The notes under the pieces: model-generated
What the model saw: the letters and a program-made list of their open reading frames with translations, nothing else
The model's database searches: none
Told to the model about the DNA's origin: nothing
Position numbers and translations under genes: made by a program
Shown: in pieces, positions 41,237 through 64,000 of the stretch
How positions within the stretch are numbered: position 1 is the stretch's first letter
Layout of the letters: each line of letters starts with the position of its first letter
Source: Limonium bicolor
Taxonomy: Eukaryota > Streptophyta > Magnoliopsida > Caryophyllales > Plumbaginaceae
Assembly (NCBI GenBank): GCA_023374045.1
Contig: CM041781.1
Span: 139,120,982-139,184,981, forward strand
Direction of reading: 5' to 3'
DNA length: 64,000 nucleotides

Positions 41237-41272
41237 ATCTACCCCCCTTAAAAGAACTTTGTCCTCAAAGTT
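41237..41272 (-). other. Polypurine tract and hairpin of D
   Basis: The minus strand reads AACTTTG-AGGA-CAAAGTT followed by CTTTTAAGGGGGGTAGAT and the LTR. Confidence 0.88.
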
Positions 41273-42745: not shown

Positions 42746-42750
42746 GTCTT

Positions 42751-43899: not shown

Positions 43900-44307
43900 T
43901 GTAAACTCATAGTGGCCGTATCGTGTCCGGAATGCCGTCTTCTCAATATCTCCCCTCCTTAATGGCTATCTGATGATACCCCATCTGAGATCAATCTTGG
44001 AAAACACAGATGCTCCCTTCAACTGATCGAACAGATCGTCAATGCGGGTAGTGGGTACTTATTCTTCACTGTCACTGCATTCAGCTCTCTGTAGTCGATG
44101 CAGAGGCGGAGACTACCATCCTTCTTCTTCACGAAGAGGACTGGCGCTCCCCATGGTGACACACTTGGTCTAACGAATCCTTTATCCAACAAATCTTTCA
44201 ATTGCTCTTTTAACTTAGTCATTTCTACCGGAGCCATACGGTATGGTGCTTTGGCTATCGGTCCGGTACCAGGTAGCAGCTCAATGGTGAACTCTACCTC
44301 CCGAGTG
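43900..44307 (-). pseudogene. N-terminal RT segment of D pol, frameshifted
   Basis: From the E insertion point the minus strand reads through the protease-RT linker ([20 protein letters not shown]) and the first RT motifs ([18 protein letters not shown] then [12 protein letters not shown]). Just after KYPLP, near 44050, one base is missing. Further one-base changes near 43975 and 43945 break the stretch that should lead to the MPFGLS motif. The frame joins directly to the protease exon once E and one copy of GGTGG are disregarded, which proves that E interrupted a single pol gene. Confidence 0.85.
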
Positions 44308-44312
44308 GGTGG

Positions 44313-46086
44313 TGTGAGCCTCGATTTTAACCCTATCCTATGTTGATTAAAGTTGATTAGGATCTAAACGGGTTTTAGGTCCACTTATAACCTAAGATTA
44401 ATAACTATGTCACATAACAATAATATTAAAACCTAAGCTAGCTCACTGGAACCTATTATGAGTCGCCACCTAATTTTAACCTAGATCAAATTAGGAAAGG
44501 AGAGTTCGGGTTCGGGGGCTTGATATTCGACTTAATTAGGGTTCAATTACTTTCATTACCCTTCCTAGGTCGTTTTTCCTCTACTCAGTTTATTTACGGC
44601 TTATTACGAGTCGTTTTAACCTAAGTGCGCGAGCTTCTGTTTTTTGTGTTTTTTTAGCATTTTTTGACAGAAAATTAAAGTGAAATTAAAAGCTACCTAA
44701 ACTAGGGTTTCGGAGGCAGAATTAGGTCAAATTTTGATTACGTCCGTAGCCACGGACCAAACGTCCGAGACCACGGACCCCAGTTAACCTAAATATACAG
44801 AAAAGTCGAAATTAAAGGAAAACAAAAATTTGCAAGGTCCGGGGCCACGGACAGGATGTCCGTGGGCCCGGACATTATTAGAAAAACCTAAATTTTGAAT
44901 TTTTAAAATCCCGCCGCCGTCCGTGGGTGTCCGTGGTCTCGGACAACGCGTCCGAGGTCCCGGACCATAGGTCCGAGGTCACGGACCACCCACGGACAGG
45001 GGTTTTCAGAAGGTTCCCGAGGGTGTTTTGAGCTCAAATTTTATGGGTGTGTAGCCTGAAAGATGTACAAGACGTTAGTGATTGAAAGTTTTCAATTTGA
45101 ATTCGAATTAAGCACGAAACTTAGCAAACAAGTTATCTGACAGAGGCTTAAATAAACAGCAATACAGAAGCCTACGAAGGTTAGTTTGAGCCCAAATTTT
45201 GAGGCAAGACAGATAACCGTGGTGAGTCAGGGAAGTGGAGTTTCTACCTGTTTTACCTTCGGATTCACAACGTTTCTTCACACCGGGACTCGTCGAGTGC
45301 TCCGTTGATGGCAGACCCGAGAGGATTTCGACCCAAGCTTCTGGTTGTTGGTTGTTCTTGCTGTTCTTCACGTTTTAGAGGTGTTTTTGTGAGGTTTTGA
45401 TGATTATTGGTGCTTTGGGGATTGGAAAACGTGTTTAGATGGTGATTTCGGGGGATTTTCAGTATGATTTGGGTGGCCGGGTGTTGGAAAACGTGAGAGA
45501 AGAGAGGAGGCCGTGTTTTCTGACTCTCTAGGGTTCTTGAGCATGTGAGGTTCTGATTTTATCCAAAACCTATCCCCTTATATAGACTTCCTTAAAGATA
45601 AAGAGAATCTAGTAAAAGTAAGATTTTTCGATATTTAACTGAGTAACTTCCCAAAGGAATTTTGCTATGAAATTTTAACCACATGTCAAGAATGGATATT
45701 ATGAATTTTCTGAGGTGGAAACGAATTTTTTAAATGCTGGAGCATTTTTAAATTGAATTTCTCGTCAGATTCAATCAGAAATTGCTAGAAAATTATTGGA
45801 AATTCGAAAAATCAAAATTCCAACGCCATTATGCTTAAAATGTCATCCTCTATCATGGGTTAAAATATCAAAGCATTTCGAGCTGATTTGGGCACCCTTT
45901 GGAGGAGAGAGAAAGCCTATTGGAGAACTCAGAAGCCTTAAAAATTACGAAAACGCCCCTGGCAATGACGAAACTGCTCCTCAGCCCTGGAACACGCCGA
46001 TCGGGCCGGAGTCTCTTACTGCTTGGTGGAGATGGCTCTCACAACCTCGTAAACCTTAACCAGGGGGTCAAATTTTGGGTATAACA
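44313..46086 (-). mobile_element. 3' LTR of E
   Basis: It begins TGTGAGCCTCGATTTTAACC and ends TTTTGGGTATAACA on the plus strand. On the minus strand a TATATAAGG box (near 45580) precedes a leader with the dyad block at 44746-45000. Open frames inside have no known match and are repeated in the other LTR. Confidence 0.93.
44746..45000. repeat. Dyad repeats of E LTR (GTCCGTGG / CCACGGAC)
   Basis: Around nine half-sites of GTCCG(T/A)G(G/A) and their inverses CCACGGAC or CCCGGAC alternate over 250 bp. A second copy is at 52914-53170, and a shorter cluster at 51499-51540 lies in the leader. E is a different element type from Tekay, yet it shares the GTCCG core. Confidence 0.82.
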
Positions 46087-46103
46087 GATTGCCCCCCGTC
46101 AAC
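46087..46103 (-). other. Polypurine tract of E
   Basis: The minus strand reads GTTGACGGGGGGCAATC directly before the LTR. Confidence 0.75.
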
Positions 46104-46222
46104 TGGACTTTGTAACGAATGTGAAAAGTCTGGTTGATGCTTGAGTGGTGCCCCAAAATTTTGGACTCCACAGAATCCTCCACGTTGTGTGAAACCGGGT
46201 CAACGATGCCCAGCAATTCGGA

Positions 46223-46556
46223 GGCGCTGACTACCTAAGCTACAAAGCATTGTCGAGCTATTCTAAGGCGCTGACTACCTAGAGGTAATAGTGAAGTAAT
46301 GTCAGCTATTCTAAGTGCCGACTACCTATAAGGATGATACGATGTCAAGCTATTCTAAGGCGTTGACTACCTAAATGATGTATGCTGTCGAGCTATTCTA
46401 AGGCGCTGACTACCTAGAGTGATGAAAATGATGTCAAGCTATTCTAAGGCGTTGACTACCTAGAGTGATGAAAATGATGTCAAGCTATTCTAAGGCGTTG
46501 ACTACCTAGGATGATGAAAATGATGTCAAGCTATTCTAAGGCGTTGACTACCTAGG
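46223..46556. repeat. Tandem array 1 of E (about 8 copies, ~45 bp)
   Basis: The conserved core is AGCTATTCTAAGGCG(C/T)TGAC followed by TACCTAG. Spacers become more uniform (GAGTGATGAAAATGATGTCA) toward the right, as expected for recent local duplication. Confidence 0.9.
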
Positions 46557-46574
46557 ATGTGAAAACTGGATGAA

Positions 46575-46680
46575 AATGCAAGAATGCTGAAATGCTAATG
46601 ATGCAAAATGATGCTGATGCTGGTGATGATGCCGATGGTGTTGATGATGTTGATGATGCTGATGATGCTGATGATGCTCG
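46575..46680. repeat. GATGCT/GATGAT microsatellite-like tract
   Basis: An imperfect trinucleotide run of GATGATGCTGATGATGCTGA type. It generates histidine- or aspartate-rich frames on either strand that are not genes. Confidence 0.85.
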
Positions 46681-46889
46681 GATGCTTCTGGGGGACCGAA
46701 ACCCGTGTCGATGCTCCTGGCTGGACCCAATGTGGACTTATTGCCATCGCCCCCCAAGCCGGTGTGCAGGGATAACTCCTGGTAAAAACCCTGGGGACTT
46801 ATTGCCTTTGCCCACCATTCGTTGATCCCAAAAATAAGTTGACATCGCAAAAGGAGGATTTATTGCCATCACCTCGCCAACTTTCTGTC

Positions 46890-47430
46890 GCCAGGTCTTA
46901 TGACGCGCCTGGGTAATAGCTAGGTCTTATGACGAGCCCATATGAATGAGATGAATGCATGTGTTTGATGAGAGTGGGTAAGCTAAGAGGGTAATGCTAG
47001 GTCTTACCACGAGCCTAAGGGAATGCAACTAGGTCTTATGACGAGCCTAAGGAATGCACTAGTCTTATGACGAGCCTAAAGGGAGGTTCTAGGTCTTATG
47101 ACGAGCCTAAGGGATGGATCTAGGTCTTATGACGAGCCTAAGAATGCAACTAGGTCTTATGACGAGCCTAAGGGTAGTTCTAGGTCTTATGACGAGCCTA
47201 AAGGTTGGATCTAGGTCTTATGACGAGCCTAAGGGAATGCAACTAGGTCTTATGACGAGCCTAAGGGAATGCAACTAGGTCTTATGACGAGCCTAAAGGG
47301 AGTTCTAGGTCTTATGACGAGCCTAAAGGATGGTTTCTAGGTCTTATGACGAGCCTAAGGATGGATCTAGGTCTTATGACGAGCCTAAGGATGGATCTAG
47401 GTCTTATGACGAGCCTAAAGGTTATTCTAA
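46890..47430. repeat. Tandem array 2 of E (about 16 copies, ~33 bp)
   Basis: The core TAGGTCTTATGACGAGCCTA is nearly invariant across about 16 copies, with spacers AGGGAATGCAAC, AGGATGGATC and similar. It is not a CRISPR array: the repeat is not palindromic and spacers repeat. Confidence 0.92.
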
Positions 47431-47504
47431 GTGAAAGTGAGTAAAATGTATGATGGGTCTGAATGGATGTAAAGGGTTAGGGTTTATGTCAAACCCGGAA
47501 ACGG

Positions 47505-47815
47505 TGGGGCTCAAGACGGGCCTGCGTGTTTGAGTTGTGAAGGGGCTTAGGACGGGCCTGAGGGAATTTGATGTGGAGGTAGGGCTTAGGACGGCCTGTA
47601 AAATTTGATGTGGAGGTAGGGCTTAGGACGGGCCTGAGGATGTTTGATGTGGAGGTACTAGGACGGGCCTGCGGATTTTAGTGGAGGTAGGGCTTAGGAC
47701 GGGCCTGAGGAATTTTTTGTGGAGGTAGGGCTTAGGACGGGCCTGAGGAATTTTGTGGAGTAGGGCTTAGGACGGGCCTAGGTTTTTGTGTAGGGCTTAG
47801 GACGGGCCTGAGTGG
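47505..47815. repeat. Tandem array 3 of E (about 9 copies, ~38 bp)
   Basis: The core is AGGGCTTAGGACGGGCCTG with spacer AGGAATTTTTTGTGGAGGT. The core resembles that of array 2 (GTCTTATGACGAGCCTA), so arrays 2 and 3 may have a common origin. Confidence 0.9.
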
Positions 47816-47829
47816 TATGAGAGGGTTTG

Positions 47830-49453
47830 ATCCTTTGGGTTTTGGATTTTTGGGACTCAATCGTGTCATTGTTGCAATTGTTGGGACCAACAATTGCCCC
47901 CAGTATTTTTCCTTAAGGCAATCCGAGTTTTTTAGGATTTTATGGCAATCGATCGGAACGATCGATTGCCCCCAGTATTTTCTTTGATTAATGCAAAACA
48001 ATCTCACTCTCACAAGGTCAGGTTTATCTTGATGTGGTGCTTTCTATCTACACTCAAAGTATTTGATGCTTGCGCTCACTCTCCTTTTGGGTCAAACATC
48101 TCAACCATTGAATTTGACATTTGTTATTTACGCGTTCAACCTGTTACTTTCACGTGATTGGATACACAACTAGTCGGAAGTCTTTTGAGCTTATAACGTG
48201 GCTATGGGTGTGAATGACAAGGACAATGGAGGAATGTTTAGGATATGTGGAGCTATAAGGGTGACCAAAGCTGCAACTTGCACCGTCTCTCGGACTTGCT
48301 TCTTTGTCCTGAAGTCGTTTGGCTACTTCGTGATGACTTCGCTTGGGAACTCTGGATTTTTGAATTGTTTCCTTGCATCCTTTCTCCTTCTTCCAATTTT
48401 GGGTTTCTTCAAGGCTTTTCAGGTTTGCCTTTCTTTGGATTTCTTTCCTCGGGGTTCTTGTGTTTCCCGGTTTTGAACTTTGAGAGCTGTTTTGATGCTA
48501 GCTCATTTGGATCCTGTGTCACTTTGGGACCATTTACGGATCGCTTTGTCATGCTGGTAGCGGTTTTGCTTCTTTGGAGTTGTGAAGTTGTTGTTCAAAA
48601 GTCGGGCTCCTTGCTTCCTTTGGTCACCGGGTCGGTTATTCATCATTGGCGGGCTTGTTTGTGGAGCCTATAGTGTTGTAAAAGAGGATATATGAAAAGC
48701 TCAGCGGGGGTGCCTAGGGTTTAATGTCAGGGTTCACAAGCTTTTGGCTGTGTGGTGCTGTTTCCTAGGTGCTTCGTCATCCCTAATAGTTGTGTATCCG
48801 TTCTTTGTTACTTTTCACAGGTTTAAGCGTAAATTTACAAATTATCTCCTTCGGTCGGAGTCATGCCGTTTGCCTCACTTTGATGTGACCTCTCTGGAGC
48901 CGTGTAAAATGACACGCTCTTTCGCTCTTGGTTTTACCGCTCAAGGCACTCTCGCGAAACGTTCACTCAGAGACTTGTTTGCGCATTTAAACAAAAGAAA
49001 TAAACATTATCGCTCCTTAGCTCAGATTGCCCCCAGTATTGCTGTGGGGTTTTCTTTTTGACAAGCCTTTTGAGTACCCAAGTTATTTTGAGGAGGGTGA
49101 TTAGTGTGGGATGGTGGTAAACAATGGAGGTGAGTAGTGATGGGGCGATTGTTAAGTGATTTTTTTCCTGTTTCAAAAACCTCTTCCAGTTTAGACTTTG
49201 GTGAAGTGACGGAGAGATAAAGTGATAGGACACATGGGTGAAATGACTTGTTTTTTACCTTGTTTTGACGGCAAAGACGCATAACTAACTTGTGATAGTG
49301 GACAACGATTTCCTATATGCAAGAGTTTTCTCGGATAACATGAATAAAAATGCAACAAGTGTCAAGGCACAAAGTCACCAAAAGAAAACTCATGTCTGAC
49401 AATACAAACGAAAAAGGACATGAAACATCTAGAGAAAATTCAAAGTCCTAAAA
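47830..49453 (-). other. E 3' non-coding region with repeated GGGGGCAA motifs
   Basis: TTGCCCCCAGTATT occurs three times on the plus strand (near 47893, 47967 and 49027). The first two are next to inverted repeats (ATTGTTGG-gacc-CCAACAAT region and CAATCGATCG-gaa-CGATCGATTG). On the element's own strand these read GGGGGCAAT, like its polypurine tract. Plus-strand frames of up to 142 codons (48198-48673) are antisense to E and have no recognisable motif. Confidence 0.5.
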
Positions 49454-50684
49454 CTACTGCTCTGGAGGAGGTGGACGTGGGAAGACTGAATACATGTGAG
49501 CCATGAAAGCATCCATGCGACCCTCCATGCGCACCTGCCTACGCTCCATGCGACCCTGGGTGATGTGGAGAGACTGGATATCCCTCTGCAAGCTCTCAAG
49601 TGTGGCTGGCTGTGGTGGCGGAGCGGGTAAAGCGTAGTATGAGGAAAGTGGTACAGGGTACTCAGTACCCATGTAACTCGGTCCCTCACCCTGGTAGGTG
49701 TGTCCTCCTGACGGGTCCTCGTGGTGTGGGATGTCCTCAGGCTCCGGTGCCTGCTGCCTCTGCCTGGGCCGGACTGGTCTCTGAGAGAAGACTCTGGCCT
49801 GCTGCGGGAAAGCCCAACCCTGATCGGCTGAGTAGCCAAGGGACCTCAGCATCTCCATGGTGTAGGTGGGATACAAGGGCTCCCAATCATCACTCCCCAT
49901 CGGGACCCGCGCGCACTCGCATAGCCACTGAATGAAACTCGGGTAAACCAAAGCGTGGCGACCAGCCCGGGCTGCTATCATCAGGTGGTCTCTCATCAGG
50001 ACAGACAGCGGGATCAAGCCCTCCTCTGAGTCGGGGATGCTGAATGTACCATGAGGAAGCAGTAGCGAGCGAGACGTCGTTACGCGCTTTCGGTAGCACA
50101 TTACAGACAGGACCTCCAATAACACCCTATCAAGAGCGGTAGGTAAAGCGGAGGGGAGGATCACCTGCTTCCTTGGCTGATCCCTCGTAGAAGAACGAAC
50201 GCGCTCTGATAGAGTCGAGTGCTGCAGATAGAACTGGCGTGCCTCGCTCTCCAAGGCCGCCATCGTCTCTAGTCCCCCTGTGCTCAGGGTCACTAGGATG
50301 CAGGCCGTAAAAATGCACAAAATCATCTAGCCCACAGTAATGGGCCGACCACGTACATAGGATACCACAGCCCCAGTATCGTCCTGGTCCAAGTTAGCAT
50401 AGAACTCTATGACTAACTCCCTAACGTAACTCTTCGGGCAAGTAAGCAACCCCGCCCAGTCAAGGTGCTGAAACAGGTGATCGAGGTCGAAAGTGGCGAT
50501 CACGTCATCGCCGAAGAGACGCTCCTGCTGGATGGAAATATCCTGATTCTCATAGAACCAGCGCTCCTGCTGAGCTCCTCTGAAACGGGTATGGTCATAG
50601 GTAGGGGATGTCTCTCTGCGGCGCCTGCGACGTGGCTGAGAGCCTGATGCCCCAGCCCCAACTACCCCACGGAACTCCTACGAC
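49454..50684 (-). pseudogene. E gag-like ORF with plant-transposon-domain features, frameshifted
   Basis: One protein of roughly 400 residues can be followed on the minus strand from an ATG at 50684 (MEGRR) through two one-base frame changes, near 50660 and 50335. The longest clean piece is 290 codons (50326-49454). The N-terminal part is arginine-rich. Then come ERWFYENQDISIQQERLF and SYVRELVIEFYANLD, then VVSYVRGRPITVG and FVHFYGLHP. This spacing resembles the 'putative plant transposon protein' domain annotated in many plant genomes, though I could not search for it. The C-terminal third is proline- and glutamine-rich (QRPVRPRQRQQAPEPEDIPH), with a possible coiled coil (LESLQRDIQSLHITQGRMER). 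It probably plays a Gag-like packaging role, by inference. No zinc knuckle is seen. Confidence 0.6.
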
Positions 50685-52470
50685 CCTCCATGGTACGCCT
50701 GTGGATTCAACGAGACAAAAGACATATAATTCTGCAGGAATTTTGACAGAGTCTCCCCTAAATTTTCACGAATCCCGTGCTTTCAAATGCACTCCCACAC
50801 CGTATAATCAGTCCTAGGATCTACCACGTATGCAAATTTTAAACATTCCACAAGCAAAAACGCGAGAAACCACATTTCACACTAAAACACACTAAACTAG
50901 AACGGACGACTTTTGACAGTTATAAGCAATTTTATCCTTCCAAACAAACTTTTCACGTCTTAAAATGCCCTTCTAAAGCTAGTTGGCCATTTTAAACATA
51001 AAAAACCAAACTTCGAAAATTTGACCCGAGAACCACCATTGTCGTCTTCTTCCTAGCTCCAAATTTCATTTTTCTTCATTTCTTCACCAAAATGGACAAA
51101 TGAGTAGTCAAAATGTAGAGAAAATTTACCCAACGCAATGGTGGAAGAAGATTTTTGATTGGAAGTTGAGAGCTACACGAATCTGGTCTTCGAAGGTCCG
51201 CCCCGGACTGGACTTCGGACGCGAGTTTCTGCCCTCGTAAGTGCTCGAAATGGGGAGATCTTGATATGGAAATGCTCAGAATTGAAAGAGGGATGTTTTG
51301 TGAGCAAAATGGCGGTGGAATGGAGTGATTTGGTCAAGAAACGAGTGAGATATAGAGGAGAGAAGTTAAGGGTTTGGGAATGGAGTTTGCTGAAACAAAA
51401 ATGGTGAATTTGGGGAGAATCCCGATTTGAATCGGGTAGCTGAGGCTACTAATCAAAACGGCACCGTTTAGCGGTCAAACGGGCGCGCCCGAGTCAACGT
51501 CCGGGGCCACGGACAGCACGTCCGGGACCACGGACGCCCCTTTTTTTTTCCTATTTTATTCAAATCCAGACTAGGTTGAAATAAAAGAGGTATGAAATTT
51601 CAAAAGACTTTAGAATGAGATGCGATCCGATAAATGCCTTTAAAGAAGACGGGAAACGACCCTATGAAATTTTCCGACCAGTTTCACTGCTTCTCCTTCT
51701 TCCCCTCACTCCTTCACTTTAAACGGGCTTATTTTTCTCGGGCCTAGAACTAAATTGATGTTTCAAATTGGACCGAAAGAGAGAAATCACCTAAGTCTAA
51801 ACCTTTGGGCCAAAGCCCAAACGAACAATTCATCCAAACCGAACAAGGCCTTTGGGCTGCAGACAATAAAGCCGTAAATTCGGGCTGGGCTAGGTTGACG
51901 TAGGAGAAATTCCTATCAGTTTCTAGGCTGGGTAGTGGGCCGATCATACAAGCAAACAAAGCCCACACAAATTCAACATGTCCTTACTTGACGGTTAAAT
52001 CAAACCTGGTATGGGTCGATCCGGAGAGGTACTTGGGGCATAGGCCCTGGTCACCTCAAAGGAATAGGGCTTGCACGCTATTCTCTTTGGGCTTCCCCAC
52101 TTTTTTCACATCACTGTTAAGTGTGCGTCTACGGTCGGGTCTTTGAATGACCAAACATTGGGCTTGGTAAGGGCACTGCCAGGAAAACGCTTGGGGCTAA
52201 GGCCCAGGTATTGAGGGGGTGTGGTTAGACGACACCCTCCTCTTTTCCCCCGCTTATTCACATCACCTAAAAGGTGTGAGTCCCTGACAGGGGACCCTCG
52301 AATGGGTCCCGGGGTGAAATTGGTTTGCGTGGACCCTCGCTCTCATATGATGCAAGGGTGCAAAAATTAAAGTGCGCACAAAAGTAAACAAGCAGCACAG
52401 TAAAAGCCATAAACAATTTCAAGTTAAGCCCTCTTTCTTAAAATTAAACAAGTTAAAATTAAGAAGTTTG
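50685..52470 (-). other. E 5' leader
   Basis: This is about 1.8 kb between the primer site and the gag-like ORF without recognisable protein. It includes a GTCCGGGGCCACGGAC dyad cluster (51499-51540), a poly-T run, and glycine/serine-free short frames that are not accepted. Long leaders are usual in non-autonomous LTR elements. Confidence 0.6.
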
Positions 52471-52488
52471 TCCCCAGCAGAGTCGCCA
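52471..52488 (-). other. Primer-binding site of E
   Basis: The minus strand reads TGGCGACTCTGCTGGGGA three bases after the LTR end. It ends with the required TGG of tRNA-CCA pairing. The tRNA identity was not established. Confidence 0.8.
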
Positions 52489-52491
52489 GTC

Positions 52492-54254
52492 TGTGAGCCT
52501 CGATTTTAAACCCTATCCTATGTTGATTAAAGTTGATTAGGATCTAAACGGGTTTTAGGTCCACTTATAACCTAAGATTAATAACTATGTCATAACAATA
52601 ATTATTAAAACCTAAGCTAGCTCACTGGAACCTATTATGAGTCGCCACCTAATTTTAACCTAGATCAAATTAGGAAAGGAGAGTTCGGGTTCGGGGGCTT
52701 GATATTCGACTTAATTAGGGTTCATTACTTTCATTACCCTTCCTAGGTCGTTTTTCCTCTACTCAGTTTATTTACGGCTTATACGAGTCGTTTTAACCTA
52801 AGTGCGCGAGCTTCTGTTTTTTTTTTTTTTTAGCATTTTTTTGACAGAAAATTAAAGTGAAATTAAAAGCTACCTAAACTAGGGTTTCGGGCAGAATTAG
52901 GTCAAATTTTGATTACGTCCGTAGCCACGGACCAAACGTCCGAGACCACGGACCCCAGTTAACCTAAATATACAGAAAAGTCGAAATTAAAGGAACAAAA
53001 ATTTGCAAGGTCCGGGGCCACGGACAGGATGTCCGTGGGCCCGGACATTATTAGAAAAACCTAAATTTTGAATTTTTAAAATCCCGCCGCCGTCCGTGGG
53101 TGTTCGTGGTCTCGGACAACGCGTCCGAGGTCCCGGACCATAGGTCCGAGGTCACGGACCACCCACGGACAGGGTTTTTCAGAAGGTTCCCGAGGGTGTT
53201 TTGAGCTCAAATTTGATGGGTGTGTAGCCTGAAAGATTACAAGACGTTAGTGATTGAAAGTTTTCAATTTGAATTCGAATTAAGCACGAAACTTAGCAAA
53301 CAAGTTATCTGACAGGGCTTAAATAAACAGCAATACAAAAGCCTACGAAGGTTAGTTTGAGCCCAAATTTTGAGGCAAGACAGATAATACCGTGGTGAGT
53401 CAGGGAAGTGGAGTTTCTACCTGTTTACCTTCGGATTCACAACGTTTCTTCACACCGGGACCGTCGAGTGCTCCGTTGATGGCAGACCCGAGAGGATTTC
53501 GACCCAAGCTTCTGGTTGTTGGTTTTTCTTGCTGTTCTTCACGTTTTAGAGGTGTTTTTGTGAGGTTTTGATGATTATTGGTGCTTTGGGGATTGGAAAC
53601 GTGTTTAGATGGTGATTTCGGGGATTTTCAGTATGATTTGGGTGGCCGGTGTTTGGAAAACGTGAGAGAGAGAGAGGAGGCCGTGTTTTCTGACTCTCTA
53701 GGGTTCTTGAGCATGTGAGGTTCTGATTTTCCAAAAACCTATCCCCTTATATAGACTTCCTTAAAGATAAAGAGAATCTAGTAAAAGTAAGATTTTTCGA
53801 TATTTTAACTGAGTAACTTCCCAAAGGAATTTTGCTATGAAATTTTAACCACATGTCAAGAATGGATATTATGAATTTTCTGAGGTGGAAACGAATTTTT
53901 AAATGCTGGAGCATTTTTAAATTGAATTTCTCGTCAGATTCAATCAGAAATTGCTAGAAATTATTGGAAATTCGAAAAATCAAAATTCCAACGCCATTAT
54001 GCTTAAAATGTCATCCTCTATCATGGGTTAAAATATCAAAGCATTTCGAGCTGATTTGGGCACCCTTTGGAGGAGAGAGAAATCCTATTGGAGAACTCAA
54101 AGCCTTAAAAATTACGAAAACGCCCCTGGCAATGACGAAACTGCTCCTCAGGCCCTGGAACACGCCGATCGGCCGGAGTCTCTTACTGCTTGGTGGAGAT
54201 GGCTCTCACAACCTCGTAAACCTTAACCAGGGGGTCAAAATTTTGGGTATAACA
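52492..54254 (-). mobile_element. 5' LTR of E
   Basis: It is nearly identical to 44313-46086; differences are mostly one- or two-base indels and homopolymer length (for example the T run near 52820). It contains the second GTCCG dyad block at 52914-53170. Confidence 0.93.
52914..53170. repeat. Dyad repeats in E's 5' LTR
   Basis: Same arrangement as 44746-45000, with one C-to-T change in a GTCCG core (GGGTGTTCGTGG). Confidence 0.82.
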
Positions 54255-54259
54255 GGTGG

Positions 54260-54828
54260 CATGCCGGGCAGTTCCCGTGGGAATAAGTCGGGGAACTCCG
54301 ACACTTCCGGTAAGTCGGGGTCGAACTCAGGGTCTCTCTCTATGTCCTGCACATAGTAGAGGTATACTTCTTCCTTTCTCCTTAATTCTCTATGCATTGC
54401 CATGGCGGTGATGATCTTAGTCGAAGGCTCTCTAGGCCTCTGGCGGTATGATATTGTTACCCCAGATGGACTCCTGAGCAGCAATCTATGCTCGGCGCAG
54501 AGGATACGTCCCTTGTGCCACTCCAACCAGTTCATCCCGAAGATAACATCAAATCCTAGCTTACTGAACTCAATGAAACTGACTGGGAAGTCTTCCCCCT
54601 TAATTCTGATGGTGGCTCCTCGGTAGTAACGAGTGCAACGAACCTTCTCCTTAGACGGGAGCGTAACCGTGAAGTCGGGTAGCTCATCAGCGTCTAGCCC
54701 CAACCTGCTCGCAAATGGTGCTGAGACAAAGGTATGCGAGGCCCCTGAGTCGAAGAGAACTGATGCCTCAATGCCATTGATCGGAAAGGTGCCGGTAAGG
54801 ATAGTACCGCTGGCGTCGGCCTGTGCCT
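54260..54828 (-). CDS. Retropepsin (aspartic protease) exon of D, start of pol
   Basis: The exon is read from an acceptor-like CTTACAG ending at 54829. It encodes EAQADASGTILTGTFP, then the retropepsin active site VLFDSGASHTFVS (D-S-G), then RLGLDADELPDF and VIFGMNWLEWH, the usual second half of a Ty3/gypsy protease. It continues into the linker ending ELPGMPP, where E interrupts it. Protease releases Gag and Pol proteins from the precursor. No start codon fits upstream, so translation depends on fusion to Gag. The frame is phase 1 at the acceptor and matches the end of gag exon 3 at 55898. It is open without breaks up to E. Confidence 0.9.
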
Positions 54829-55025
54829 CTGTAAGTATGCTTAGTGCACCTTCCGTACCGAGTCCATAACCTAATTGTGTTCACAAGCTCCATGAGTATT
54901 GATGGTATAACAAGAGACGTAATCAATTATATGAACAACACTGTTATTTTATTCATGACCATCCTGTTTACAACATGTGCTTTAATCTTACATTACATTT
55001 CTCATCTCATTCTAACATTACATGG
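54829..55025 (-). terminator. Putative poly(A) region after the AlkB exon
   Basis: Downstream of the AlkB stop on the minus strand come UGUA-type motifs (TGTAATGTTAG, TGTAATGTAAG, TTGTAA), then AATAAA at 54953-54948, 73 bases after the stop. Plant poly(A) sites use UGUA-rich far-upstream and AAUAAA-like near-upstream elements, so transcripts could end here. This is inference from motifs in an AT-rich stretch. Confidence 0.4.
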
Positions 55026-55765
55026 CTAATATTGTCTAAAGGTTAGGTTCAATCTTCCTGGTCTCAAATGCGTCGTATTGACTACTGCTGATGGTGTTGT
55101 ATTCAGCTTGATTCTCTTAATCCCATGGTATAACATCCTTGATTCTCCTCCCAAAATTAATACATCACCTGACTTAAGTACTATCTTATCTGCACGGCCC
55201 GCACGCTTCTGCTCGCCGTATAAAAACTCCGCATCATCTCCAATGGACCAAGACACTACGGGTATCCCTCTTTCAAGAGACTCCGTTGTCTCGTCCTTAT
55301 CCTGGTGTAGTCCCAGTTTCCCGTCCTTTTCGTAGAAGTTTACAATACAAATGTCTGCTTGGATGTCTGGAATCGGTTCAGCCTCCAACTGCTGAGCGAT
55401 TTCCACGACTTGTGTAATAACTGGATGGAACTCTTCGGGTATTCCCGGTGGTGAGACTCCATCTTGCTCCCTCATGGTTTGGTAGTTCTTGGCATACGGA
55501 TTCCAATCCTTGCCCAAGCTCATCATCTTTAATTTCATCCTTGCTCCCCCTGGGTACTCCGGTGTGTAAAAACCTCCCGGTCTCATTCCTAGTTGATTGC
55601 ATCTCCTGATGATGGCTATTTGTGCTTCGGGTGTCAGGTATCCCCTTAATAGAATCATACCTGGGCGGATAACCTGACATCGTTCGGTTGGAAAGTGAAT
55701 GGTTTCGATGTCGGTGTGCTCCGGGCTAGATGTAGATGGTATAGGGTAGCAGATGTTGAATCTTC
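55026..55765 (-). CDS. AlkB-type 2-oxoglutarate/Fe(II) dioxygenase exon within element D
   Basis: The frame is open from an acceptor-like CACTTTAG (ending at 55766) to TAG at 55026, about 245 residues; an in-frame TAA lies inside the presumed intron just upstream. From the first ATG (55658) it is 210 residues. Iron ligands are His118 and Asp120 (GKLGLHQDKDE) and His178 (GGESRMLYHGI). The 2-oxoglutarate motif RxNxTxR is Arg202-Asn204-Arg208 (GRLNLTFRQY). NFY at 107-109 and RPGGFYTPEY at 26-35 also suit AlkB. The part before the ATG (GRFNICYPIP ... VIRPGM) looks like the start of a plant ALKBH1-like catalytic region, so I include it. AlkB enzymes oxidatively remove methyl groups from RNA or DNA bases. 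It lies on the element's coding strand between gag and protease, unbroken although gag and RT have frameshifts. Substrate and origin (host gene capture most likely) are inferred. Confidence 0.92.
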
Positions 55766-55897
55766 CTAAAGTGGTAGTAGGTTATGTCTTACTTAAGTTC
55801 TAAACTCATCTTATTTTTACTTAACTCATTCATTCACCAAACATGCATGATAATGCGGTAAGCAGGTAGTTTTATTACTAAATGGTTATAGTGGTAC
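55766..55897 (-). other. Putative intron 3, gag exon 3 to AlkB exon
   Basis: Donor CCAG|GTACCA at 55897 and acceptor CTTTAG at 55766 with a pyrimidine/adenine-rich CATAACCTACTACC before it. Removing these 132 bases keeps the frame from the gag zinc-knuckle exon into AlkB. Unspliced, gag stops within 15 bases of the donor. Confidence 0.6.
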
Positions 55898-57300
55898 CTG
55901 GCCTCGATGAGGGCTCAGGCTCATCGTCCCGGTCCACCATGTGTAGAGTGGGCCCCGTCTTCTGGGTCACCCTTGGGTTCTTGTCCGCCGGCTGCTGCAC
56001 TTTCCTCTGACCGTCAGATCCAGCTCCCTGATCGGTCTTGCCCTTGCCCCTGGTGTCGGGCCTATAGGCTCTGCTAGCAGGATTCCGGTAACACTCGTAA
56101 GCTCGATGTCCATACACTCCGCAGAAGTTGCACTCCACCTTATTCCCCTTACAGTCGAGCCCGGGGTGGTCCTTGTGACACCATCTACAGATGAAGCGTC
56201 GCTGGTAGCCACCACCGGCTCCCTTCTCAGTCTCAGGTCCTGATGATTCATATAGTCAATCCTCATATCTCGTACGGTTACTAATTTATTTCTTAACTCA
56301 TTCAATATCAATTTCCTTACCCTTTGGCGCCTTAGAGCGCAGTGGTGTAGCTGCAATAGCATAGGTCAGCTTCAATGGCTCTTCCGAAGCCTTCTCCTTT
56401 TCCTCCCTCCCCTTTGGGTTCTGATTTTTCTGGGCCTGAGGCTGGTACTTTTGTTTCTTGTACCCTCCTTGCCCTTGACTTTCTGAGCTCTTCCCAGCAC
56501 TCTTCCTCTTTGCATTCTCCTCGTCCCTTAGCTGGACGGTAATCTCAACCTTAGCAGCGGCATGATAGCACTCCTGCTTTTCCATAGTATTAGTCTCACT
56601 TATTTCTCATAATCTAAATCTTATTCATCACTTACTCAAATCTCAATCGTTCTTATTACCTGCAAGGTAGTGTAACTCGTCGGCCCCATGCCGTAGCGGA
56701 GTCGATGGCTAAGCCCGCCATAGAAGCGGTCCACCAAGATCTGGTCAGAATACCCTAGACCTGGCAGAAGACGGAGCAAGGCAGTGAACTCTGAGTAATA
56801 CTCGTCCACTGTCATCTTGTCCGACTGCTTAAGCGCATCTAACTGTAAGCGCTTCTTCGTCTGGACATGGGCGGGGTAGTACTTTGCTCGTAGCAAGGTG
56901 GTGTACTGCTCCCAGCCGAACTCTGGATTGGCCACATGCTCGGCCCTCACCAGCTTCCACCAATCGCCTGCCGCCCCCTTCAGATAGAAAGCAGCTAGGC
57001 GCACCTTGATCCCAGCAGGGACATCAAGGGTCTCGAAGGCGGTCTCTAGGTCGGAGATGTACGCCTCAAGCTTGGCGGGATCGGTCTCGCCCTTAAAATG
57101 CGCGGGTCGAAGATCTGCTAGACTCTTCACCCAGTTCGGTTCCCTAGGTTGTGGCGGTGGAGGTGGGCACCCACACCAGGCTGATAGCCCATGTGCCCTA
57201 AAGCGGCAGCTACGATCTCTGCGATCGTCTGCCCTCCAGGTATCCCTGAAGTATCCTCACCCCGGCCGCGACCTCGGCCTCCTCTAGGGCGTCCTGCCAT
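55898..57300 (-). CDS. Gag of D in three exons (57300-56660, 56573-56321, 56239-55898)
   Basis: Exon 1 starts at the ATG at 57300 (MAGRPRGGRGRGRG), an RGG-rich N-terminus. It continues with the capsid region: KSLADLRPAHFKGETDPAK, LAAFYLKGAAGDWWK, MTVDEYYSEFTALLRLLPGL. A one-base change near 57165 separates the N-terminus from the rest. Exon 2 (253 bp) is ECYHAAAKVEITVQLRDEE then a lysine/glutamine-rich linker. Exon 3 carries two knuckles, CRWCHKDHPGLDC (CX2CX3HX4C) and CNFCGVYGHRAYEC (CX2CX4HX4C), which bind genomic RNA. Introns of 86 and 81 bp separate them; splicing keeps the frame at both (phases 0 and 1). Exon 3 ends in phase 1 at 55898. Gag forms the particle and packages RNA. The second ATG (57312) in the same frame is also possible, but the equivalent codon in B is not ATG. 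Confidence 0.88.
56240..56320 (-). other. Gag intron 2 of D
   Basis: Donor AAAGG|GTAAGG and acceptor AATCATCAG, 81 bp, phase 1. It contains in-frame stops (the upstream frame ends ...KEIDIE), so it must be removed to reach the zinc knuckles. B has the same intron at 63627-63702. Confidence 0.8.
56574..56659 (-). other. Gag intron 1 of D
   Basis: Donor TTGCAG|GTAATAAG and acceptor GAAAAGCAG, 86 bp, phase 0, with an in-frame stop soon after the donor. B has the matching intron at 63294-63373, with the boundaries conserved and the interior diverged. Confidence 0.8.
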
Positions 57301-57518
57301 CTGAACAAGCATAACTTACATTAGATTCGTACTCACCATTGTTTTGGTTAGTAAGTTTATAACGTCCGTAGACGGTAAAGACAATCCACACTTATTAGTG
57401 GTCATCTGACTCTACTCACTCTAACTTCTCACACCCTTAACCCAACACTTATTCCTCAACTTATATCCTAACTCGGTGGTTACTCAAGTCCGGTATTTCT
57501 TGATCAGAGCGTAACTAC
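57301..57518 (-). other. D leader between primer site and gag
   Basis: About 220 bp without a gene. It ends with CTTGTTCAG immediately before the gag ATG, an acceptor-like sequence also present in B (TTGTTCAG|ATG at 62703), so an intron in the 5' leader is possible. Confidence 0.5.
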
Positions 57519-57530
57519 GCTCTGATACCA
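57503..57530 (-). other. Primer-binding site and hairpin of D
   Basis: The minus strand has TGGTATCAGAGC (57530-57519), tRNA-Met type, five bases inside the LTR. Arms ATCAGAGCGTA and TACGCTCTGAT with a two-base centre overlap it. Confidence 0.93.
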
Positions 57531-57880
57531 CTTTTTGTAACACCCAATCCAAAGCCTATCGTGGTTATCGCAATCTGAACACTTAATCGAATACGTCGCA
57601 GCGGAAATAAACAACACCTGGACCTTGCCACGGTCTGATCGTTAGAATATACCGGCTTAAATGCTTACAATACTTATCCAAAAATACTTATCCAGCTTAA
57701 ACATCAACATTCGTAATACCACAACCAACCGAGTACTAGTATCTTAAACATAATCCCAAACTTACATCAGTTTAATATAAACAGTCGGGTGCACAGGCGC
57801 AACCCGAACTCAAAATAAATGTCCCACCCTAAGACTAACCGCTCCTACTCTCGTAGTGCGTCCTCATGGGCCTCTTACCT

Positions 57881-57923
57881 GCAAGTGTAAAAATAGCCCC
57901 CGAGGGGGTCAGCACGAATGCTG
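57881..57923 (-). promoter_or_regulatory. Double hairpin and CAG|GTA site, D 5' LTR
   Basis: On the minus strand CAGCA-TTCG-TGCTG then CCCCC-TC-GGGGG, a T-rich run and CTTGCAG|GTAAG. The 3' LTR has the same sequence at 37455-37499. Confidence 0.6.
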
Positions 57924-59034
57924 GTACACCCTCTCATGGCCCCCAAGCTAACGGGGCTACGACGACTAATTGGCGATAGCATGGAAATTGATTACATACA
58001 CAAGCATAATATGTGCAATAACAATAACCATAGATGAACATATATAGTTCACAACCAATGAACGACTCAAGCGTTCCCTTATCAAGTGGGTTAGTAACCC
58101 CCTCCTTAGTCCTCATTTCCTTAATCTCATTTCCTTACCTTACCTTAATCTTAATCTCAATCTTAATCTTAACCTCAGTATACAAACCTTTCCTGGAAGG
58201 GATTGGTTGTAGCTTAATTCGAACCTGGGATTTAGGTGATCCCACCGCACCATCTTAATGCCACCTACTCTGGACGGGAGTCCAGCGCAGCTGAGCCGGC
58301 AACCGGCCCTAGGCTACAAGTCCGAAGACAAGTCCTTAAGCGGAGGGCGGATCTGATTCAGATACCGTCCCCCTTTTTCCTTAGCATGCATGACCGGAGA
58401 TCGGTCCCGGGTTTCCTCACTCAAGTTCCAGTTAGTTGACATCTTAAACACCACGTGCTAGCTAAGCCTTAACGGGCATTAACCAACAACCATCAAACTT
58501 AACTCTTTCTTAACTCAGTAAGTACTAAACTTGGTTAGTAACAATCTCAAGTCTCGTGGGTTAGTGTAAGGCTAACACAAACACAACGAGAATAAATATA
58601 ACCGGTTGCATGCTTTATCTTATTTAAGTCATAGCAAGTAAACAGATAGCACACAAGCCGAGGGACACCTCGTTAGCAAGCAGGTCACAAGAAGGACTGT
58701 ACCGTTCACCGTCGATCGTTGTTCGTTTAACCTTCTTCGGGGTCCCAATTCACAAACCTAAAACATTCATTCATTTTTAGGTCATTAGTTATTTGCACCT
58801 TACTTAACTCACTTAGTCCCTAGGGATTCCCATTCAATATCCTCTCAAGTCTTTGCCACTTAGCTTTCCACTTAATTTTTAAACATCAAAACTTATACTT
58901 AATCTTAACTTAATTCCTTAAGTTCTTAGGGTCCTAATCATTACCACCCTACCAAAGGTATACCTCATTACCTATTACCATTCTTAGAATTCAAAATTTC
59001 TTCTTCTTCTTCTTTTTTTTTTTAAGTGTTAAGG

Positions 59035-59320
59035 GTCGACCGACCCACCGACCGACCCAACCCCTGGGTCGGTCCATTACAGAAACTCTTCCGTCTCTTG
59101 AAACCCATCCGACCGACCCAGAGCTAGACCGACCGACCCAAACCCTCTGGGTCGGTCCCTTACAGAACCCATTTTCCTACTTAAACCTTGCCCGACCGAC
59201 CCAAAGCTAAGCCGACCGACCCAAACCCCTGGGTCGGTCCAGTCCAGAGGCATTCCGGCTGGCTTAACATGGCCCGACCGACCCAAAACTGGGTCGGACC
59301 CTGGGTCGGTCCTCTACAGA
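59035..59320. repeat. Dyad repeats in D's 5' LTR
   Basis: Same GACCGACCC/GGGTCGGTC arrangement as 38603-38885, with small indels. Confidence 0.85.
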
Positions 59321-61663
59321 TCTCTCTCTAAATTGCCGCTTTCAATTCCTAACTCTTCCACAAGTGTTCTAATAGGTCCAACACCATCTCGGCACCTTAA
59401 ACCCACCTTATAACCTCTACCAAACTCGTTAAAACAACTTCCAAAGATCTTCTCAAACATTTACTCAATTCTTACAAAGCTCCCAACACTTAGCACTTAT
59501 TTTCTTACATTTCTCACATGCATTCCACCAAAAGTTTCAATTAACCAAATGCTCCCTCCTTAAGAACTTGACCACACCATGTACACCACTTCCCAGCCTT
59601 ATTGCATTTATCAAACCTTCCTTAGACTCTATACTCTAGTTCTCACCTAACCATTTCAAAGTTTCACCCTCACTTACATCTAATTTACCCAAGTTTTCTA
59701 GCTTCTTTTATCAACATTTACCTAAGTCCTAAATACCCAAGTACACTCTTTTGTTTCCTAAATCCTTCACAGTGACGCCTAAGTCATTACAAGTCCTTAG
59801 AACACCTTATTCTCACCCTTTTTCACCAAGACAATCTCTAGAACATCCTAGTACTTCCTTAGTCATTAAATTCCCTTAGAATATCTTAAACACCTAAGCT
59901 CTCCTTTAAATTTTGCCATGGGTTCTCTAGTATATAGTACCTCCTAACACATGGTTTTTCTCCATCAAACAACCAATACCACACAAATTCTTATCGCAAC
60001 ACTTATAACACAATTTTCACTAAGACTTCACCACATCATCATATATTGCTTAAACTTAAAATGCTTGGCACTTAGGCCCTTAATTGACAATAATCTTAAC
60101 CACTGAATCTCCACATATATATGCCTTCAACCTGCGAATACACTCAACAAGGCTCCCATTGAAATAAAATGCTTCTTGTACTTCACCTTTATATTCTTAA
60201 ACTATCTCTTTTTCTTATTTGCTCCTTAGTCACAAGTTCACAAGTATAGTCATTGTTTCTCCTAGGTTTAATATAACACCTTCCCAATATAAACTCTACA
60301 CTAAACTCATCATATACCTACATCTCATTCCCTTAAACAACAAAACACCTTAAGGTAAGTAATTTACCTTGTTTTCTCACAAGCTTAAAAGCTTTTCTCC
60401 TTAGGTTTTTCTTTGTTCAATCTCGGTCACCAATGTGTGTCTCCTTGCCAATGTTCTAACCAATATCCAATGACTCCAATGAGTACTAGATAACACATTA
60501 ACCCTAAGGAACAAACCCTAGGTTAAAAATATGTTTTAAGGTATTAATGTGATTGTTTTACCTTGGTTTCTCAAGACAAACTTGGATATGAAGCAAGAAT
60601 GACCTCCTCTCTCCTTTGAAGAGTAGAAACAAGCTAGCACAAGGCATAAACATGGGGTTCCATGAGTATATATTTTCGGACATGTGAAGAAAATGGTGGA
60701 AACCTAGATTTTCTTACACTTTCTTTACCTTAAGAGAATGGAGATGCCAATGGAGTCTCCAAACTTGAATTTCCTCCTCTAATGGTGGTTTGACTTGGCA
60801 CCAAAATGAAGCTCTTGAAGTTTTGAAAAGATAGAAAGGAGGAGCTTGAGCTAACTAAGAAGAATATGTATTTTGTTTTGGATTTGGAGCTAAAATGAGT
60901 GAGTTGTGTGCAAGAGAAGGTGGAGCTAGCATGGAGAAGGGCTTCACGTTAATGGAGAAGAGAAAGAGAGCAAGAAACCGTGTGAAACAAGGGAGAATGA
61001 AGAAGTGAGGAGAGAGGTAAGTAAAGTGTGATATTTATCTTAAAAGGTGAATAGTACTTTTACTTTACAAATCTTTATTTGCTTAATGAGTCATGAAGGT
61101 GGTGACTCACCTTACAAGAAACCGGCCCCCATTAGTAACAAGGGGTACTTAAGTCATTGTTGACCAAATATCTCACTTATATTGACTTAGGTTATAAACT
61201 AGCTTAAATAATTTACTATTCATCAAAACAAGGCACATTGTTGTGAAATTTTTGATTTCCCATTGATATAGACTTCCAAATGTGATACTATATAGTACAC
61301 ATGTTAATTAAAGAGTAATGATGGACATTTAGCCATTCAAAACTCATTTACAAGACAATTTTTCAAAAACGTGCTTTAAGACTCCTTAAAGCACATTTTT
61401 GTTTTAACTTGTTTTCAAGCTTGGTTTTCTTTGGTAATTGACTTAAAATGACCATTAGGATATTACTAAGGTCTTAGGACAATATTTGGGTACTCTCCCA
61501 TGTCTCTCCAAGCTTAGAGCACGTTTTTGTTAAAACTGCTCTTTTGGTGTTTCCTTATATTTTCTTTGATTAGAAATGTTTCTTGATGTTTCTAAGGCAT
61601 TATTTAGCCTCCTTATATCTTAGTTTATCATTTAAACACCATATCTAAGTTTGGGGTATTTCA

Positions 61664-62470
61664 GGAATGGTACCGGCACATGTGTATTGGGGGAGGACGG
61701 TATGTGAATCAGATCCGACTTCCAAATAAGACTTGTCCTCGGACTCGTCGCCTAGGGTCAACAAACCGACCCGACCACCCGGACTACTGTTTGAGGTGGG
61801 AGGCATATTAAAGATGGCGTGGGGGATCAAGCCTACATCCCCAATAAACTAAGAAAGGTTGCTTATTGCCGGTGAGTGCACTGCTACCGGCTAGGGTTAA
61901 CCAAGGAGAATGTGGACCTAAGGAGTTAAGATCTAACTCACTTGTTAAGGGAATGCCTGAGACGTTCAATTGTGTGTGAACTATGTGTGTTCATTTGTGG
62001 TTTGTTGATGTACTGCGTTCATATTGTGATTGTGATTATAATCAACTTCCATGCTATCGATAATTAGTCGTCGTAGCCCCGTTAGCTTGGGGGCCACGAG
62101 AGGGTCGTACCAGCATTCATGTTGACCCTCTTTGGGGGCTGTTTTTACTCTTGCGGGTAAGCGGCCCATGAAGTCACACCACGAGAGTAGGAGTGGGTAG
62201 CCCTAGGTGGGACTTTATTTTGAGTACGGGTTGCGCCTGTGCATCCGTCTGTTGATAGTTAAACTTGATAAATGTTATGTGGTTTTGGAAATACTTATAA
62301 CTCGGTTGGTGTATGTATTTTGGATATTCGGTTGTAAATATTTAAGAAACGGTATTTCTTGTTGATCAGACCGTCGCAAGGTCCTGGAGTTGGTTTACTT
62401 GCGCTGCGATGTTTATGTATTAGTTGTTAAGTTTATGGTAACCACGATTGGCTTAGGACGGGGTGTTACA
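61664..62470 (+). mobile_element. 5' LTR of element B, second part
   Basis: The sequence GACGGTATGTGAATCAGATCC near 61699 and later blocks match the corresponding part of D's LTR (reverse complement near 58350). It carries the double hairpin (62111-62139: CAGCA-TTCA-TGTTG, then CCCTC-TTT-GGGGG), TTGCGGGTAAG in place of the usual CAG|GTA, and ends GGGGTGTTACA at 62470. It continues the LTR interrupted at 37273. Confidence 0.88.
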
Positions 62471-62475
62471 AAAAG

Positions 62476-62503
62476 TGGTATCAGAGTGTAGTTACGCTCT
62501 GAT
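62476..62503 (+). other. Primer-binding site and hairpin of B
   Basis: TGGTATCAGAGT differs from the tRNA-Met complement only in its last base. The hairpin arms ATCAGAGTGTA and TACGCTCTGAT keep pairing with one G-U. Confidence 0.9.
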
Positions 62504-63293
62504 CAAGAAACACCGGACTTAAGTGACCATCAAGTTAGGATATAAGTTAAGAAATAAGTGATGGGTTAAGGGTATGAGCTGTTAGAGTGAGAAGAGTCAG
62601 ATGACCACTGTTTAGGGTGGACCGTCTTTCCGTCTACGGACGTTATAATTCGTTAACCGAAACAGTGGTGAATACGAACCTAATGTGAGTTGTGATTGTT
62701 CAGATGTCAGGAAGGAGAGGCCGAGGCCGTGGCAGAGGCGACGATGCTTCAGATATACTGGGAGGGCAGACGATCGCAGAGATCGTAGCTGCCGCTTTGG
62801 GGCACATGGGCTATCAGCCTGGTGCACCCCCACCTCCACCGCCACAGCCCTGGGGACCAAATTGGGTGAAGAGCTTAGCAGACCTTCGACCCGTGTCATT
62901 TCAAGGGGAGACCGCCTTCGAGACCCTTGATGTCCCTGCTGGGGTCAAGGTGCGCTAGCTGCATTCTATCTGAAAGGGGCAGCGGGCGATTGGTGAAAGC
63001 TGGTGAGGGCCGAGCATGTGGCCAATCTAGAGTTTGGCTGGGAATAGTACACCGCATTGCTATGACCAAAGTATTACCCCGCCCATGTCCAGACAAAGAA
63101 GTGCCTACAGTTGGATGCACTTAAGCAAACCGACAAGATGACGGTGGACGAGTATTACTCAGAGTTCACCGCCTTACTCCGTCTTCTGTCGGGTCTGGGA
63201 TATTCAGACCAGATACTGGTGGACCGCTTCTATGGCGGGCTTAGCCATCGACTCTGCTACGGCATGGGGCCGACGAGTTATACTACCTTGCAG

Positions 63294-63373
63294 GTAATAA
63301 GAATAAATAAAATATGAGAAGGTGAATGAGGTTAAGATTTGAGAAATAAAGGAAACTAACACTTGGAAAGCAG
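63294..63373 (+). other. Gag intron 1 of B
   Basis: TTGCAG|GTAATAAG to TGGAAAGCAG, 80 bp; boundaries as in D. Confidence 0.75.
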
Positions 63374-63626
63374 GAGTGCTATCATGCCGCTTCTAAGGTT
63401 GAGATAACCGTCCAGCTAAGGGACGAGGACAATGCCAAGAGGAAGAATGCCGGGAAGAGCACCGAGCACCAAGGGCAGGGAAGGTACAAGAAACAGAAGT
63501 ACCAGCCCCAAGCCTAGAAGAATCAGCACCAAAAAGGAAAGGAAGGAACAGAGAAGGCTACTGAAGAGCCACTGAAGTTGACTTATGCTTATGCTGCTAA
63601 GCCCCTGCGCTCCAGGGCGCCAAAGG

Positions 63627-63702
63627 GTAAGGAAATACATCTTGGGTAAATAAGAATGGTTGACAACGTTGAGACACAATCACAGATGCCATGTGTAATC
63701 AG
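63627..63702 (+). other. Gag intron 2 of B
   Basis: AAAGG|GTAAGG to TGTAATCAG, 76 bp; boundaries as in D, interior diverged. Confidence 0.75.
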
Positions 63703-64000
63703 GTACTAAGACTGGAAAGGAAACCGGTGGTGGCTACCAACGACACTACTATTACCAGAGGTGCAACAAGGACCACCCCGGAGTTGACTGTAGGGGGAAT
63801 AAGGTGGAGTGTAATTTCTGCGGTGTGCTCGGGCACCAGGCATATGAGTGCTACGGGAACCCAGAGAGTAAGAATTACAGACCCGGTTTCAAGGTTAAGA
63901 CTAGGACCGACCAGGGAGCTGGACCTGACGGACACAAGGGGGCGCAGCAAGTGGCAAACAAGAATCCACGGGTAGCCCAAAAGTCGGGACCCACCTTACA

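Follow-up and report, generated by a model that had tools for sequence, protein, structure and literature searches.

A 64,000-nucleotide stretch of the Limonium bicolor genome (contig CM041781.1, forward-strand positions 139,120,982 to 139,184,981; the window hereafter) contains a chromovirus-type retrotransposon, E1, bounded by long terminal repeats (LTRs) and carrying an exon for an AlkB-family dioxygenase between its gag zinc knuckle and its protease. It is proposed, with a probability of about 0.55, that this ALKBH1-type enzyme is made as a spliced Gag-AlkB fusion and likely demethylates the RNA or single-stranded cDNA of the element itself. The AlkB family comprises enzymes that remove methyl groups from DNA and RNA.

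The AlkB exon (55026..55765, minus strand) encodes 245 residues and ends with a TAG stop, its start being placed at a predicted splice acceptor. It lies in an uninterrupted 251-residue frame between stops (55781-55026, minus strand), which is used for numbering below. A profile search for 2OG-FeII_Oxy_2, which the earlier note had asked for beforehand, matched PF13532 over its full length (Pfam search, E = 1.9e-44, residues 41-249, profile positions 1-194 of 194) with a score of 152.7 bits against a cut-off of 31.2. The iron triad HxD...H is kept as H159/D161/H219, within HQDKD and YHGI, in alignment with E. coli AlkB and relatives, and the RxNxTxR motif for 2-oxoglutarate (2OG) is kept as R243-R249 (GRLNLTFRQ) in alignment with E. 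coli AlkB. The identity of the frame as a member of the AlkB family is far beyond chance. The first ATG of the exon is codon 36, and the catalytic core starts at that methionine. The 35 preceding codons are open, in phase with gag exon 3, and retain an F[DN]IC motif of the host proteins.

The best match of the frame among sequences of the PDB is the rice 2OG oxygenase OsALKBH1 (5xeg, E = 5.3e-72), with about 50% identity in a Foldseek comparison. It is followed by E. coli AlkB and mammalian ALKBH1, and none of the 21 PDB sequences matched at E ≤ 0.1 is named ALKBH5. Several of the top named protein matches are called ALKBH1C or ALKBH1D. These PDB and named matches, on which the choice between ALKBH1 and ALKBH5 rests as the trees presented below are without ALKBH5 rows, assign the domain by sequence to the plant ALKBH1 type and not to ALKBH5/9/10. 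The earlier note had claimed an intact frame with both catalytic motifs and an ALKBH1-like affinity, and was correct in each respect. A viral origin was considered and rejected, the best viral structural match having an E-value of 5e-12 versus 2e-28 for OsALKBH1.

All genes of E1 are read on the minus strand. The 5′ LTR (57536..61663, TG...CA) is 98.6% identical by blastn over 3983 columns to the 3′ LTR (37274..41236), which was delimited by blastn and by reading of the ends. Over 3946 sites the pair differs by 12 transitions, 7 transversions and 20 indel events, for a Kimura two-parameter distance (K2P) of 0.0048. The 3′ LTR lacks its final ~160 bp, and the target duplication is therefore not readable. 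The primer binding site TGGTATCAGAGC (57519..57530), which we take to be of the initiator tRNA-Met type, is also found after the LTR of a second copy, E2. The polypurine tract region AAGGGGGGTAGAT (41237..41249) adjoins the 3′ LTR.

Gag exon 1 (56660..57300) contains the start ATG and the capsid, with a frameshift in its first third; the capsid open reading frame (ORF, 57256-56636) matches PF03732 (3.1e-18) and PF19259 (9.8e-13). Exon 2 (56321..56573) is rich in lysine and glutamine. Exon 3 (55898..56239) carries a CCHC zinc knuckle, read in the sequence, and ends with CAG|GTACC; the corresponding ORF (56255-55878) matches PF13917 (0.0033) and PF00098 (0.016), both below cut-off. On the other side of AlkB, the protease exon (pro, 54255..54870) is in phase with gag exon 3 and is severed by a nested insertion; its ORF (54880-54206) matches PF08284 (1e-26). 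The LTR pair, together with the location of PF03732, CCHC and PF08284 on the minus strand, bears out the position given in the earlier note, namely between zinc knuckle and protease, on the coding strand of one LTR-bounded unit.

Further downstream are the C-terminal part of the reverse transcriptase (RT) with the RNase H (42751..43965; PF00078, 1e-21; PF17917, 1.5e-35) and the integrase with a C-terminal chromodomain (41546..42757; PF24626, 4.4e-27, and PF17921, 1.6e-6, both above cut-off; PF00665, 1.6e-5, below it). The order RT, RNase H, integrase and C-terminal chromodomain is that of a chromovirus (Ty3/gypsy), with a weak match for the chromodomain itself (PF00385, Chromo, E = 1.9e-4, 21.7 bits, cut-off 25.1). 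The two pol ORFs showed only one RNase H region; their frames are broken, and a second could have escaped notice. A search of Rfam at the gathering threshold gave no match in 44000-64000.

The gag exons are separated by two predicted introns of 86 nt (intron 1, 56574..56659, 71% AT) and 81 nt (intron 2, 56240..56320, 70% AT), both GT...AG with the same sites in E2. Without splicing, translation of gag would end shortly past 56660 and again shortly past 56321, with the CCHC knuckle left in a third ORF. Predicted intron 3 (55766..55897, 132 nt, 68% AT) ends at the near acceptor CTTTAG|GAAG; E2 ends before it. An AT-rich stretch (54871..55025, 68%) is found 3′ of the AlkB stop, with AATAAA at 54953-54948 and a far acceptor, AATTAG|GTTA, at its end. 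The AT content of gag exons 1-3 is 42, 48 and 40%, and that of AlkB 54%. The donor following the zinc knuckle can be joined in the same phase to either acceptor, of which the near one (55766) leads to AlkB and its stop and the far one (54871) to the protease. A Gag-AlkB fusion produced by alternative splicing is predicted; the earlier note describes neither the gag introns nor this two-way splice. Two messages, Gag-AlkB and Gag-Pol, would be generated in addition to an unspliced genomic RNA that would preserve the introns in new copies. AlkB aside, the AT-rich GT...AG gaps in the gag of two copies (56240-56659 and 63293-63702), the exons of which differ by 11-26%, are unusual for plant LTR elements.

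Relatives were taken from protein searches covering the best 120 of 464 and the best 120 of 1844 matches. The closest proteins among the matches listed, P0001, P0002, P0003 and P0004, have 72, 60, 69 and 62% identity to the AlkB frame, compared with at most 55% for the host-type ALKBH1 proteins listed or aligned. A high profile score of the Artemisia protein P0174 was traced to a partly duplicated host-type domain, and this candidate was rejected. A 56-row tree was built from the window and 55 of 173 proteins chosen for spread, and rooted on a selection of four rows from algae or unnamed eukaryotes. The window and P0001-P0004 form a clade with 100/100 support, in which the window, P0001 and P0003 group together (100/98). 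It does not fall among the 45 host-type ALKBH1 proteins (40 named flowering-plant sequences and 5 without a name), which a branch with 98/84 support sets apart; two liverwort rows and the four root rows are placed further out still. P0001-P0004 are also grouped in a 126-row tree, with a Shimodaira–Hasegawa-like approximate likelihood ratio test (SH-aLRT) value of 96, the window row not being counted.

An old, separate AlkB lineage with a retained gene is favoured by these trees, although it is not shown. Support for the branch of host rows is 88/72 in a 32-row tree versus 98/84 in the 56-row tree. Approximately unbiased (AU) tests on the 32-row tree rejected a grouping of the clade with 10 monocots (p = 0.032) or with 3 orchids (p = 0.0003), whereas a grouping with 10 presumed eudicot rows, including one without a name, was not rejected at 0.05 (p = 0.052). 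The claim of great age is weak because of this last result and of the drop in support. An accelerated rate of evolution within an element could likewise shift the clade towards the root. A tentative extension of the proposal, less likely than not, is that an ALKBH1-type eraser has been retained in a chromovirus lineage from a time before flowering plants diversified, and that it is delivered as a particle-borne Gag-AlkB through a one-donor splice switch. The earlier note had the element capture a host ALKBH1 segment. The ALKBH1-type domain within the element agrees with this idea, but recent capture from the sampled flowering-plant genes does not fit a clade placed outside the 45 host-type proteins. 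The eudicot grouping that was not rejected limits this argument concerning capture.

P0001-P0004 might instead be normal host ALKBH1 genes from a group of plants that is absent from the sample and was the donor to the element, in which case the clade would be mute on age and retention. All four come without a name (sources ena and lgn) and without context, and P0006, a host-type protein of 285 residues, was likewise called on a contig, so that a long open frame is not proof of an element. Yet the collection holds many named plant proteins and, among the best 120 of 464 and 120 of 1844 matches, none is near these four. The F[DN]IC motif precedes the domain in 191 of 223 proteins; LG is found there in P0002 alone, as at the acceptor in the window, and P0002 and the window have an ICYP run in common. 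The LG signature hints that P0002 has the same exon start as the window. A host origin of the four proteins is considered unlikely, though it deserves to be taken seriously.

It is further proposed that use of the near acceptor would yield Gag-AlkB, and use of the far acceptor Gag-Pol, while the unspliced RNA would be the genome for reverse transcription, since two copies have kept introns 1 and 2. The Gag moiety would bring the enzyme into the particle, beside the packaged RNA and single-stranded cDNA, both of which are plausible substrates by analogy with the ALKBH1 subfamily. There, AlkB may clear the packaged RNA or the nascent cDNA of N6-methyladenosine (m6A) or DNA N6-methyladenine (6mA), or of lesions, for example 1-methyladenine, and this demethylation would raise the output of the element. 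By the same analogy, demethylation of packaged RNA or cDNA by a Gag-tethered AlkB is judged the most likely role.

Alternatively, the enzyme could work away from the particle, with host transcripts or 6mA in R-loops or chromatin as its targets, and ease expression or integration. A chromodomain ties an element to chromatin, which counts in favour of such a role, as does the fact that the closest solved relative is OsALKBH1. Rice ALKBH1 strips 6mA from R-loops and restrains trimethylation of histone H3 lysine 27 (H3K27me3), and the preference of ALKBH1 is for single-stranded or unpaired DNA (PMC10469495). The predicted fusion to Gag would, in contrast, bind the enzyme to the particle, and action elsewhere is regarded as rather improbable, about as much as a host origin of P0001-P0004.

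A more doubtful explanation is that AlkB is a passenger, a host ALKBH1 segment captured once by E1 or a small subfamily, without a role and still open since little time has passed. The low divergence of the E1 LTRs (K2P given above) means that an open frame needs no selection, the other genes of E1 are broken, and AlkB is seen in one copy, E2 being cut by the end of the window before the place of AlkB. Against this stand the 60-72% identity of the four nearest relatives, compared with at most 55% for the others, and their 100/100 clade with the window. The borders of the exon also speak against it. The longest word shared by the stretches 55960-55740 and 55060-54840 is 9 nt, and a word as long occurred in 103 of 500 shuffles; no poly(A) was found after the AlkB stop. 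A recent insertion of a host pseudogene was rejected on the grounds that the borders tested are without direct repeat beyond chance and the stop is not followed by poly(A). Splice acceptors in phase and four closer relatives likewise speak against the chance one-off insertion that the earlier note had named as its own refutation. Further copies were sought in viral contigs (244 pattern matches, none confirmed) and genome contigs (169 pattern matches, none confirmed), which is weak evidence as the former comprised viral sequences only and the latter bacterial and archaeal sequences only.

Several points weigh against the proposal that E1 makes a Gag-AlkB acting on its own RNA or cDNA. The relatives P0001-P0004 are known as protein sequences without species name or genomic context, and no other copy of the AlkB exon is present in the window. 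E1 is not active as read, with frameshifts in gag and pol and a nested element between pro and RT. The splice scheme is predicted from sequence signs, and the divergence between E1 and E2 fails to set introns apart from exons: introns 1 and 2 have an ungapped identity of 84% and 75%, exons 1-3 one of 89%, 85% and 74%. A search of annotated proteins of about 461-1468 residues for AlkB joined to Gag or Pol gave 53 matches, of 461-924 residues, with no recognised retroelement Pfam accession. Finally, translation of AlkB alone from Met 36, with the apparent acceptor unused, would suit a catalytic core that begins there and the start of P0001 and P0003 at the same methionine in the collection, but it is the least probable explanation given the open, in-phase codons that retain F[DN]IC upstream at the TTTAG|G acceptor and introns 1 and 2, which suggest splicing of gag in the E1/E2 family.

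E1 is inserted, in opposite orientation, inside an LTR of the related copy E2. The left part of E2 (33931..37276, plus strand) is LTR sequence that matches the E1 LTRs in reverse at 80-82%. The right part (61664..64000, plus strand), recognised by comparison with E1, includes the rest of the LTR, the primer binding site, gag exons and introns 1 and 2. The window stops 44 bp short of the E2 donor equivalent to the one preceding AlkB in E1. Short GACCGACC-type motifs recur within the LTRs of the family (59020-59330, 38600-38890 and 36300-36700). A later LTR element of ~9.9 kb (44313..54254, strand not assigned) is nested in E1 after pro. It has LTRs of 1.77 kb that are 97.7% identical and a 5-bp target duplication, GGTGG, at 44308-44312 and 54255-54259. 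It contains tandem-repeat arrays at 46.2-47.8 kb and minus-strand ORFs (50677-50327 and 50326-49454) with weak matches, below cut-off, to PF20167, a putative plant transposon protein.

Nesting makes this element necessarily the younger of the two, but its LTRs have a K2P of 0.0103 versus 0.0048 for the E1 pair, and the low divergence of the E1 LTRs is consequently an unsafe measure of age. Indels and substitutions number 20 and 19 in 37274-41236/57698-61663, 23 and 18 in 44313-46087/52492-54255, 8 and 9 in 11173-12463/24490-25783, and 49 and 39 in 16382-19551/25772-29013. The ratio of about one indel per substitution in these four repeat pairs is likely due to assembly noise or gene conversion, and some of the gag and pol frameshifts of E1 may for this reason be assembly artefacts. 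The last two pairs are direct repeats (98.8% and 96.5% identity) that adjoin one another and may constitute a single long repeat, interrupted in one of its copies; both match the LTRs of E1 or E2 in parts at 70-76%.

E1 is not the first retrotransposon with an AlkB gene. In a screen of 121 angiosperm genomes, the 2OG-dependent dioxygenase (2-ODD) domain turned up in giant Ogre/Tat elements of two Phalaenopsis species and nowhere else (Alvarado-Marchena et al. 2022, PMC9289625). The Gypsy_Pa_2799 family of these orchids, an Ogre/Tat Ty3-gypsy group, has an ALKBH5-type ORF2 that is an m6A demethylase in vitro (PMC9289625). Like E1, it is a Ty3/gypsy LTR retrotransposon with a full AlkB-family domain and its catalytic residues kept. 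Gypsy_Pa_2799 is a 25-kb non-chromovirus with a separate 565-residue ORF2 beside a single Gag-Pol ORF, whereas E1 is of chromovirus type with an ALKBH1-type domain between gag and pro and a predicted Gag fusion by splicing. E1 is not a member of the orchid family, from which it differs in the clade of the element, the subfamily of its AlkB, the place of this gene and the predicted mode of expression. The activity of the orchid enzyme was measured in vitro and the AlkB of E1 is known from sequence; that E1 would work like the orchid elements is an inference only, by analogy.

Among the titles and abstract openings listed from open-access PMC papers, the orchid case was found but no AlkB in a chromovirus, subscription papers being mostly outside this coverage. 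A word search of PMC7264820, on extra ORFs, gave no mention of AlkB, oxygenase or Tekay, and in the passages found in PMC11963269 the only item on AlkB elements is a citation of the orchid paper. Sunflower Tekay elements have 5′ extra ORFs of a different kind (PMC11728184). LTR element clades are defined by trees of RT, RNase H and integrase (PMC6317226). For E1, the narrower Tekay affiliation given in the earlier note is putative. The REXdb survey counted extra ORFs from 250 codons upwards that preceded or followed the polyprotein (PMC6317226), and a survey of this type would miss the AlkB of E1 because the exon is internal and has 245 codons.

The orchid case alone could be an oddity of one genus. 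If the proposal for E1 is true, a second capture, involving another AlkB subfamily, retrotransposon clade and position, would make demethylation a recurrent counter-measure of plant retrotransposons. The restraint of retrotransposons by the host through methylated RNA or DNA would become testable, and the predicted splice switch would be a new way of balancing an accessory protein against Gag-Pol.

The plant ALKBH1 proteins (OsALKBH1, 5xeg/5xoi; ALKBH1C/1D) are encoded by host genes, many with a longer N-terminus, whereas the AlkB of E1 shares its phase with the gag of a retrotransposon and falls in a clade apart from them. Host AlkB proteins can act on retrotransposons, since Arabidopsis ALKBH9B demethylates m6A, with the release of ONSEN RNA from stress granules (PMC12786077). 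Plant RNA viruses, such as Grapevine leafroll-associated virus 3, resemble E1 in having an AlkB domain in a mobile genetic element. The viral domains are at most 22% identical to that of E1 (best 50 of 1222 viral Foldseek matches), compared with about 50% for OsALKBH1, and the plant-virus proteins among the matches listed are of replicase type. Plant LTR retrotransposons are generally without introns, Ogre and EVADE being exceptions (review, PMC12786077). In both, introns give rise to subgenomic RNAs by splicing (PMC12786077), as predicted for E1. What would distinguish E1 from Ogre and EVADE is the location of its predicted introns in a chromovirus-type gag and the use of two acceptors to choose between pol and an accessory enzyme.
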